Source: Actinomycetota bacterium (GTDB lineage: Bacteria > Actinomycetota > Thermoleophilia > Gaiellales > Gaiellaceae). From it: a stretch of 64,000 nucleotides of DNA. The notes under the pieces are model-generated. The model was not told where the DNA came from. It searched no databases and saw only the letters and a program-made list of their open reading frames with translations. Within the stretch, counting starts at the first letter, position 1. The number at the start of each line of letters is the position of its first letter. The stretch lies in contig VAWW01000013.1 in assembly GCA_005884575.1 (NCBI GenBank), forward strand, positions 62,001-126,000. Reading direction: 5' to 3'. The position numbers were made by a program, and so were the translations under genes. Below, one piece after another: positions 6,275 through 8,218 of the stretch.

Positions 6275-7009
6275 TTACCTGGGAGTGCGGAAGGTGAGCG
6301 GCGTGCGGTTGACCGCGGCGCGGTCGCCGGCCTCGGGGTCCGGGGCGACCGCCCGCTCCCGCGCCGTCGGGCCCCGGTGCAGCACGGTCAGCCGGTACTC
6401 CGAGACGAGCCGCCCGGCCGCGGCGCCGGGGATGCGCTGCCGGACGACGACGCGCACCACGTGCCGTCCGGCGGGCAGCGGCTGGAACACGAGCGAGTGG
6501 ACGCTCATGTGCAGCGCGCCGAGGTCGCCCGGGAAGTAGATCCGGCAGATCTGCGAGCCGTTGTTCCGGTAGAAGAGCCAGTAGCGGTGCGGCTGCGCGA
6601 GATGCCGCCCGTCGTAGGTGACGTCCACGTCGAAGCGGCTCGCGTCCGCGCGCGAGCCGGCCTCCGTCAGCGCAGACGTGACGACGGTGTCCAGCACGAG
6701 CCCGGTGCGCGGAACGGTCAGCCGCCAGACATTCCGCACGGTGCCGCCCGGCACGACCGTGCGCTCGACGTCGTACGGCAGCAGGCGGAAGGCGCCCGCG
6801 TCGATGTACTCGGGCAGCTGGTGGAAGTTGTACGTGACGACGGCGCTCGCGAGATTCGCCGGATTCGTGTCCATGTCGGTCTTCGCGTCCGGCGGCCGCA
6901 CGAGGCCGGCCGGAATCAACGGCCGCTCCGCCGTCGGCGCCGCGGAATGCTGCGACCCGCAGCCCGCTACGAGGAACGCGGCGAGGAGAGCTGCGGTTGA
7001 CGCGCGCAC
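6275..7009 (-). CDS. Predicted lipoprotein of unknown function
   Basis: A 244-residue protein with a clear lipoprotein signal: MRASTAALLAAFLVAGCGSQ, lipobox LVAGC with the lipidated Cys at about residue 17. The mature part has an Ala/Pro linker and then beta-rich segments with many aromatic residues (YRNNGSQICRIYFPGDLGALHMSVHSLVF). I do not recognise a family; the size and beta content suggest a small extracellular beta-sandwich domain. It is transcribed divergently from the rsgA leader region. It shows that lipobox signals do exist in this genome, in contrast to the ABC binding proteins here. Confidence 0.75.
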   Translation of the reverse strand: MRASTAALLAAFLVAGCGSQHSAAPTAERPLIPAGLVRPPDAKTDMDTNPANLASAVVTYNFHQLPEYIDAGAFRLLPYDVERTVVPGGTVRNVWRLTVPRTGLVLDTVVTSALTEAGSRADASRFDVDVTYDGRHLAQPHRYWLFYRNNGSQICRIYFPGDLGALHMSVHSLVFQPLPAGRHVVRVVVRQRIPGAAAGRLVSEYRLTVLHRGPTARERAVAPDPEAGDRAAVNRTPLTFRTPR

Positions 7010-7044
7010 TCCTGGAATCTACGGTTCCTGGGTTCGCGACGTTC

Positions 7045-7162
7045 CGAGGAAAGGAGGCAGTGACATGACAGCTGAGCGATCCGCCTCCTTCGCCGTCGCG
7101 TAACGCCGCTCTCTCCCTGATCGAGCGAGGAGCCGCGACGCGCGGCCCACGTCCTTTCCTCG
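7045..7162 (+). promoter_or_regulatory. rsgA leader with competing base-pairing around two ribosome binding sites
   Basis: CGAGGAAAGGA (7045-7055) is exactly complementary to TCCTTTCCTCG (7152-7162), giving an 11-bp long-range stem that would hide the leader ORF's ribosome site. The alternative AAGGAGGC (7051-7058) pairs with GCCTCCTT (7083-7090) inside the leader ORF. CTCCTT (7085-7090) is also complementary to the rsgA ribosome site AAGGAG (7174-7179). These are mutually exclusive pairings. A switch in which leader translation controls access to rsgA is inference. Confidence 0.4.
7065..7103 (+). CDS. Possible 12-residue leader peptide upstream of rsgA
   Basis: A very short frame, MTAERSASFAVA then TAA, with a strong ribosome binding site (AAAGGAGG, 7050-7057) 7 bases before the ATG. 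It lies 83 bp upstream of the rsgA start on the same strand. The strength of the ribosome site and the complementarity around it (see the regulatory entry at 7045-7162) suggest a translated leader ORF. The codons show no run of a single amino acid, so classical amino-acid attenuation is not indicated. Chance cannot be excluded. Confidence 0.4.
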   Translation: MTAERSASFAVA

Positions 7163-7186
7163 TTCGTTCTCACAAGGAGATCTGCG

Positions 7187-8218
7187 TTGCCTGCTTTCGA
7201 CCTGAGCGGGCTCGGATGGACAGCCGAGCTCGCGGCCTCGCTCGAGGCCGGATCGATCCCCGGACGCGTCGCCGTCCAGCACCGGGGCGAGTACGTCGTC
7301 TACAGCGAGCTCGGCGAGCTCCGCGTCCGCCTGCCCGGGCGGCTCCTCCGGGACGGCATCACCGCAGCCGTCGGCGACTGGGTCGCGCTCGACGGCGAGG
7401 CGATCCGCGCGGTGCTGCCACGGCGCACGGCGCTTGTCCGCCAGGCGGCCGGCCGCGAGACGGGAGCGCAGGTGCTCGCCGCGAACGTCGACGTCGCCTT
7501 CCTCGTCACGTCGCTCGGCCCCGACCTCGAGCCGCGCCGGCTCGAGCGCTACCTGACCGTCGTGTGGGAGAGCGGCGCGAGCCCGGCGATCCTGCTGACC
7601 AAGTCGGACCTCCACATCGACGCGGCCGAGCAGGCGCTCGAGGTCGAGGCGGTCGCGTTCGGGGTTCCCGTCCACGTCGTCAGCGCGGTCACGGGCGAAG
7701 GCTGCGACGAGGTCGCCGCGTATCTGGCGCCCGGCACGACTGGGGTGCTTCTCGGCTCGTCCGGCGTCGGCAAGTCGACGCTCGTCAACCGCCTCGCGGG
7801 CTCGGAGCTCCTGCGGACGCGCGAGATCCGCGAGGACGACGGGAAGGGCCGGCACACGACGTCGCACCGCGAGCTCGTCGTCTTGCCGGGCGGCGGCATG
7901 CTGATCGACACGCCCGGGCTCCGCGAGCTGCAGCTGTGGGACGGCGGCGGTAGCGGCTTCGAGGAGGCCTTCGCCGACGTGGAGGAGCTGGCTGCCGGCT
8001 GCCGCTTCAGCGACTGCGCTCACCTGCGCGAGCCCGGCTGCGCGGTCCTCGCGGCGGTCGACGACGGCGTCCTGCCGCTCGAGCGGCTGCGGAGCTACCG
8101 CAAGCTGGAGCGCGAGCTCCAGCGCCAGGTGCGCCGGCAGAGCGACGCCCGCGAGCTCGCCGCCCGCAGGAAGGAGATCAGGAAGTTCACGCGGTCGCTC
8201 CGCAAGGACGCCTGGTGA
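7187..8218 (+). CDS. rsgA: Ribosome small subunit-dependent GTPase A
   Basis: A 343-residue circularly permuted GTPase that assists late 30S subunit maturation and releases RbfA. An N-terminal OB fold covers about residues 22-80. The G motifs appear in permuted order: G4 TKSD (138-141), G1 GSSGVGKS (190-197), G2 in GRHTT (221-225) and G3 DTPG (241-244). A C-terminal zinc knuckle follows, with Cys272, Cys277, His279 and Cys285 (CRFSDCAHLREPGC). The start is TTG at 7187, chosen because AAGGAG ends 7 bases upstream and no better start matches the OB fold. The leader region with alternative pairings suggests translational control. Confidence 0.95.
   Translation: MPAFDLSGLGWTAELAASLEAGSIPGRVAVQHRGEYVVYSELGELRVRLPGRLLRDGITAAVGDWVALDGEAIRAVLPRRTALVRQAAGRETGAQVLAANVDVAFLVTSLGPDLEPRRLERYLTVVWESGASPAILLTKSDLHIDAAEQALEVEAVAFGVPVHVVSAVTGEGCDEVAAYLAPGTTGVLLGSSGVGKSTLVNRLAGSELLRTREIREDDGKGRHTTSHRELVVLPGGGMLIDTPGLRELQLWDGGGSGFEEAFADVEELAAGCRFSDCAHLREPGCAVLAAVDDGVLPLERLRSYRKLERELQRQVRRQSDARELAARRKEIRKFTRSLRKDAW

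Follow-up and report, generated by a model that had tools for sequence, protein, structure and literature searches.

A candidate ribosome-occupancy attenuator in the 5' leader of long-type rsgA genes

The 5' leader of rsgA in a Gaiellaceae genome of 4.16 Mb quite probably forms a ribosome-occupancy attenuator, as judged from sequence comparison. Together with its relatives, this leader displays a promoter-like box, a strong ribosome site, a short open reading frame (ORF), a hairpin between segments 1 and 2, covariation between segments 2 and 3, and a hairpin of segments 3 and 4 placed before rsgA. The leader most likely senses ribosome trouble, a trigger that we infer. A first-pass annotation of this DNA had proposed a translation-sensing switch, and such an architecture is supported by the comparisons described here. 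The leader finding is real and reaches further than that annotation held, but the pairings differ from the ones it described. The strong evidence for this putative control region comes from comparative data and less from the window alone (the window is the whole stretch of 64,000 nucleotides that was analysed).

The leader in the window and among its relatives

The leader and its gene comprise the following features, with positions counted from the first letter of the window.

6997..7025, + strand: promoter-like box TTGACG, 17 nt, TACGGT, read from the sequence
7035..7041, + strand: lower arm of the leader hairpin, CGCGACG, pairing with CGTCGCG at 7094-7100; the 5' arm covaries with the ORF
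7050-7057, + strand: leader ribosome site, AAAGGAGG, read from the sequence
within 7050..7058, + strand: segment 1, of which 7051-7058 pairs with 7083-7090
7065..7103, + strand: 12-codon leader ORF, MTAERSASFAVA, with ATG at 7065-7067 and TAA at 7101-7103; a leader ORF is conserved in relatives
7083..7100, + strand: segment 2 inside the leader ORF, GCCTCCTTCGCCGTCGCG, pairing with segment 1; in the clade the ORF covaries with a post-stop segment
7122..7131, + strand: segment 3, CGAGCGAGGA, predicted 5' arm of the downstream hairpin
7132..7146, + strand: predicted inner stem of the downstream hairpin, GCCGCG/CGCGGC
7152..7162, + strand: distal segment of the first-pass annotation, an 11-bp complement of 7045-7055 that overlaps segment 4; no covariation in relatives
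7157..7166, + strand: segment 4, TCCTCGTTCG, predicted 3' arm of the downstream hairpin
7174..7179, + strand: rsgA ribosome site, AAGGAG, partly paired with 7110-7116 in the predicted fold
7187..8218, + strand: rsgA, encoding a long-type RsgA GTPase of 343 aa with a TTG start at 7187, assigned by profile matches and a tree

The letters of the window match the coordinates given earlier, including those of a 12-codon ORF with a strong ribosome site before rsgA. The promoter-like box lies upstream of the leader and not downstream of position 7103, where a transcription start would have spoken against the earlier proposal. It predicts a transcript start near 7032, so that transcription of the short ORF and its ribosome site ahead of the gene is suggested by this box. 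The leader stop codon is followed by 83 nt before the TTG start of rsgA. As listed, a divergent ORF (6275-7009, - strand) contains the -35 box of rsgA (6997-7002) in its 5' end; this ORF probably starts further in than listed.

Within the leader, AAGGAGGC (7051-7058) is complementary over 8 bp to GCCTCCTT (7083-7090). The helix between CGCGACG (7035-7041) and CGTCGCG (7094-7100), which the first-pass annotation missed, is an extension of this pairing. CGAGGAAAGGA (7045-7055) is complementary over 11 bp to TCCTTTCCTCG (7152-7162), and GCGAGGAG (7125-7132), read by eye, is a possible alternative partner of segment 2 that is not predicted at equilibrium. By chance in the window, 6 of 5000 dinucleotide shuffles give an 11-bp complement and 183 of 5000 an 8-bp one joining the 5' arm to the ORF (81 of 1000 by duplex energy). 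For 7032-7189, the predicted fold beats those of shuffles by a small margin only (z -1.77). No terminator was recognised around the window leader. A known Rfam element was rejected as its identity: a search of the window gave no match at gathering score and a chance-level one only at 7032-7104, and Rfam families gave no match to the leaders of 14 loci. In the 412 kb of the genome that were scanned (about 10% of it, with 257 long ORFs kept), no intergenic short ORF other than the window leader has a ribosome-site run of at least 8; two reach 7.

The relatives of the window genome in its own family (f1) and in a sister family (f2) are here given the label Gaiella clade. No congeneric genome is found among the 61 genomes examined, in which the nearest RsgA proteins are about 60% identical to that of the window. 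Leader ORFs were called by an automatic rule (ATG or GTG start, 9-26 codons, 60-300 nt upstream, at least 6 contiguous bases of the ribosome-site reference). Such an ORF precedes long-type rsgA in 35/47 cases in f1 and 5/5 in f2, and the conserved leader ORF that the first-pass annotation had proposed as a check is thus present in relatives. Dinucleotide shuffles give 0.7 expected in f1 and 0.15 in f2, and the opposite strand gives 2 and 1. Together these make 40 of 52 genes by the automatic rule (about 1 expected) and 44 of 52 once four f1 leaders accepted by eye are included; leaders with weaker or ambiguous ribosome sites were set by hand (L004, L007, L019, L022, and L025, four of them in f1). 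The count leaves out L064, a repeat of L035, as well as L060 and L123 at contig ends, and L026, also at a contig end, never entered it. Several of the eight leader-less f1 long-type genes (L030, L036, L037, L066, L067, L070, L071, and L072) are second copies, and the other copy in the genome has a leader.

The same rule finds no leader ORF before 11 short-type rsgA genes (group f5s). Elsewhere in the class it finds one before 1/12 rsgA genes in f3, 3/9 in f6, 0/9 in f7, and 1/12 in f10; the leader ORF is far from universal in the class. It selects one of 41 window genes, and this is probably rsgA itself because its leader is the only window ORF of that strength. Of the 44 leaders, 37 have a promoter-like box 23-39 nt ahead of the GGAGG core (29 reach 7/12 matches or more) and 7 have none; these scores are not calibrated against chance. 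Of 39 f1 leader ORFs, 33 end in TAG (TAGC in 26), compared with 14 of 34 readable rsgA genes; TGA is the commonest stop of those rsgA genes and of the window genes.

Pairings that share the leader ORF

Pairing was tested in 44 leaders (39 from f1 and 5 from f2), of which 23 remained after removing similar ones. In 42 of the 44 predicted folds the ribosome-site core pairs with bases of its own ORF; 20 shuffles of codon order give 28.1 on average and 34 at most. The arm that lies 5' of this core covaries with the ORF, with 0 of 5000 permutations as good in the 23 non-redundant leaders, whereas 4954 of 5000 are as good for a control arm further upstream. The earlier claim that the leader ribosome site pairs over 8 bp with its own coding region is borne out in this form. 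The ORF also covaries with a segment after its stop codon (6 of 5000 in the same 23 leaders). In the clade, two covarying and mutually exclusive pairings thus share the ORF, and the second of them is weak in the window sequence.

The other pairings fared differently. The 11-bp distal pairing is present in the window as first described, but the leader ribosome site and the post-stop stretch do not covary in the 23 non-redundant leaders (4080 of 5000 as good), and this pairing was rejected as a conserved switch. The covariation anticipated in the first-pass annotation is therefore found for the ribosome-site arm and the ORF and not for the distal pairing, with the ORF and the post-stop segment covarying instead. 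A CTCCTT had also been read as able to cover the rsgA ribosome site. No covariation links the ORF with that site in the 23 non-redundant leaders (4836 of 5000 as good), and this pairing was rejected as conserved; the rsgA ribosome site and the post-stop stretch give an intermediate value (185 of 5000). The permutations assume exchangeable sequences, and their outcome may be sharpened by relatedness; the non-redundant subset and the control arm serve as safeguards. The whole ORF hairpin differs weakly from dinucleotide shuffles (mean z -1.0). In two Gaiella-clade leaders (L021 and L028), a GC hairpin followed by five T is located just before rsgA.

The proposed switch would work as follows. Ribosomes held at the start of the leader ORF, not advancing, would occupy segment 1 and leave segment 2 free to pair with segment 3. 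The 2:3 pairing would weaken the 3:4 hairpin, and rsgA would be made. With ribosomes passing or absent, the 1:2 and 3:4 hairpins would form and rsgA expression would be low. The switch probably responds to a slowing of initiation or of early elongation, as would occur under stress that targets ribosomes.

Modelled ribosome masks agree with part of this scheme. When the leader start is masked, pairs between the ORF and downstream sequence rise from 6.7 to 13.0 in the Gaiella clade (43 leaders, 32 up and 4 down, with L016 left out for its long spacer). In 24 Firmicutes leaders they rise from 9.6 to 23.4 (19 up and 0 down), and the terminator side loses pairs, from 36.9 to 29.7. Since a start mask frees the ORF for the downstream segment, a non-advancing ribosome would switch the gene on. 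In the window leader the start mask gives no 2:3 pairing at equilibrium because the downstream 3:4 hairpin (7122-7166), which persists, is so stable. Co-transcriptional folding, which equilibrium models ignore, or Rho may matter for this leader. Across the Gaiella clade, 3:4 pairs do not differ between start-masked and end-masked leaders (p 0.55). In 44 leaders, ribosome masks do not make the rsgA ribosome site consistently more or less accessible, and simple masking of that site was rejected as a general mechanism.

The same absence of a modelled effect on the rsgA ribosome site favours a constitutive leader, in which the ORF and its ribosome site load ribosomes early, protect the message, or couple transcription and translation, and the GC-rich leader forms hairpins as a by-product. 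Part of the pairing does come free, given that cores pair into codon-shuffled ORFs in 28 of 44 cases on average. We consider such a leader unlikely, however, because the count seen (42 against a maximum of 34 in the shuffles) is beyond this free share, two separate pairings covary when own partners are compared with swapped ones, and Firmicutes terminators covary with the ORF.

Leaders before long-type rsgA in other phyla

Leaders that would fit a ribosome-occupancy attenuator are also found outside the Gaiella clade. A similar rule, with ATG starts only and at most 32 codons, was applied to long-type loci of other groups. It identifies a leader ORF in 43 of 70 from Firmicutes (3.5 in shuffles), 10 of 23 from alphaproteobacteria (0.4), 4 of 8 from cyanobacteria (0.25), and 5 of 14 from elsewhere (0.3). 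When GTG starts are admitted too, 11 of 24 additional actinobacterial loci have one (0.8 in shuffles; L351 and L358 of this set had too little upstream DNA). Two f30 loci, from genomes of 9.2 and 9.7 Mb with both RsgA kinds, have leader ORFs. Of 20 canonical rsgA genes whose genomes also contain the long type, one has a leader ORF; this control is too easy, because canonical rsgA genes are often located inside operons.

In Bacillales, the ORF contains ACAGCCC, which spans the codons of a Gln-Pro that recurs there and is complementary to GGGCTGT within the 5' arm of a terminator. Where the motif differs, its partner differs too, as with ACACAACCC and GGGTTGTGT in L184 and with TTTCACACGC and GCGTGTGAAA in L164. 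The pairing test was carried out on 24 of the 43 Firmicutes leaders, chosen by hand, of which 17 are non-redundant. In these 17 the ORF and the downstream segment covary, with 0 of 5000 permutations as good; in 6 of the 24 (L136, L238, L250, L253, L262, and L200) the longest perfect complement is other than the expected motif. Intrinsic terminators are present in two Bacillales examples. Control in these relatives would act on transcription because the 3:4 hairpin there is an intrinsic terminator. The pairing of ORF and terminator has an antiterminator layout, and it offers what we regard as the strongest mechanistic evidence, from relatives and not from the window. A T-box leader (RF00230) is located downstream of long-type rsgA in Lysinibacillus (L164, 3706-3951). 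Alphaproteobacterial leaders look alike by eye, and their covariation with 11 leaders is only suggestive (101 and 128 of 5000 as good by energy, 1652 and 3838 of 5000 by longest complement).

Among 22 pairs of similar Gaiella-clade ORFs, there are 84, 90, and 83 differences at codon positions 1, 2, and 3; these pairs were picked by ORF identity, which biases any excess of ORF over flank identity. Because the differences are spread in this way, the peptide is not what is kept, and it appears that ribosome presence and RNA are kept in these leaders. A recurring Gln-Pro motif within Bacillales and a recurring peptide end, VS(I/T)PV(R/H)R, in f6 would suit a leader at which a particular nascent peptide and a drug arrest the ribosome, as in erm or msrD leaders. 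The Bacillales Gln-Pro codons are also the antiterminator strand, so that RNA pairing can explain the motif, and Gaiella-clade peptides show no sign of selection on amino acids, which makes arrest of this kind improbable as the general explanation. The f6 peptide end is shared by leaders L080, L081, and L088, unlike the freely changing f1 peptides, and these leaders are possibly a peptide-dependent variant. A classical attenuator that reads the supply of one charged tRNA is the least credible reading: a leader ORF with alternative structures is its textbook layout and Arg, Ser, Ala, and Thr are enriched in Gaiella-clade peptides, but the peptides have no run of one codon as in trp-type leaders, amino acids change freely with even differences over codon positions (on which both amino-acid attenuation and peptide selection were rejected in this clade), and the target is a ribosome GTPase and no biosynthetic gene.

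Long-type RsgA and its possible role under translation stress

RsgA acts in late 30S maturation. The window rsgA product contains the RsgA GTPase domain (PF03193, 178.3 bits, cut-off 30; TIGR00157, 153.1 bits, cut-off 100) and is the only RsgA over cut-off in its genome. PRK12288 scores 171.2 bits on it, below the cut-off of 360. In a quick tree of 63 rows, a fully supported branch parts the long-type copies from 20 canonical copies. The long-type side holds the Gaiella clade, alphaproteobacteria, Firmicutes, cyanobacteria, two Streptomyces plasmids, and one Listeria record. The canonical subfamily, which is found beside the long type in Firmicutes, was rejected for the window RsgA on the basis of this branch and the PRK12288 score. 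Among 43 genomes searched, those of Firmicutes and cyanobacteria mostly contain both kinds of RsgA, with identities to the window protein of about 44-54% for the long type and about 27-41% for the canonical one. Six alphaproteobacterial genomes have one RsgA match each.

Long-type rsgA appears to be a patchy, partly mobile gene because of its plasmid matches and its uneven presence across families. Long-type-like genes match 133 plasmid records, the weaker of which are untyped as to kind. At 1e-60, 14 of 60 genomes in the family of one Phenylobacterium have a match, and in the family of Fictibacillus 34 of 34 genomes have one. On a Lysinibacillus fusiformis plasmid (L286, 1495-3017), long-type rsgA lies directly before the fosfomycin resistance gene fosM. 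On a Streptomyces plasmid (L285, 1-2565), a Tn3-family transposase gene is located upstream of long-type rsgA, which has a leader ORF. The name rsgA2 is already used for lp_1687 of Lactobacillus plantarum.

Several known systems resemble the proposed one. In Bacillus subtilis, initiation stalling on a leader ORF switches the ABC-F resistance factor gene vmlR; occupancy by the initiating ribosome switches anti-antiterminator, antiterminator, terminator, and ribosome-site-sequestering hairpins, and the short peptide can vary (PMC9226507). The vmlR leader differs in its three-codon ORF, its gene, and its RNA, while the rsgA leader is known from sequence and no terminator was recognised in the window. 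In Escherichia coli, topAI has a leader, toiL, that responds to ribosome inhibition of several kinds, and stalls at the leader start are among those that switch it; it differs in unmasking a downstream ribosome site and in its target, a toxin-antitoxin operon (PMC12121999). The logic proposed for rsgA would be close to that reported for vmlR and topAI.

In Listeria monocytogenes, a leader ORF of 14 codons and an attenuator precede hflXr (lmo0762), which encodes the second copy of a ribosome-associated GTPase (PMC6310831). It differs in that it encodes HflX and not RsgA, its leader has an RLR stall motif, and lincomycin induction was shown there, set against a sequence-based account here (PMC6310831). 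HflXr is the closest parallel to long-type RsgA, as a second ribosome-GTPase copy behind an antibiotic-sensing leader. Streptomyces coelicolor has two RsgA/EngC paralogs, SCO6149 and SCO5211, one of them activated by WblC/WhiB7. The messenger of its second RsgA rises under a translation-targeting antibiotic, and the paralog differs in being controlled at its promoter (PMC7157823). Searches of open-licence PubMed Central papers turned up no account of rsgA being preceded by a leader ORF or controlled by an attenuator. The kind of device is already known, and the target, the spread, and the ORF as switch strand before RsgA appear to be new within the literature searched.

On the strength of the HflXr parallel, we propose with moderate confidence that long-type RsgA is made under translation stress. 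More tentatively, it is possible that long-type RsgA is a stress-inducible and sometimes plasmid-borne counterpart of HflXr, a 30S GTPase made when initiation stalls and controlled in several phyla by an attenuator whose ORF is the switch strand; as the only RsgA of the window's family, it would then place 30S maturation under ribosome feedback. In that family, where the long type is the sole RsgA, the leader may act as ordinary feedback. The rsgA leaders are short, conserved, and simple to place before a reporter. If the proposal is true, ribosomes would feed back directly on a ribosome-assembly GTPase. A reason for the second RsgA of many bacteria would also suggest itself, namely that a block of translation may call for it, and long-type RsgA would be a candidate tolerance factor against translation inhibitors, a role already tested for HflXr.
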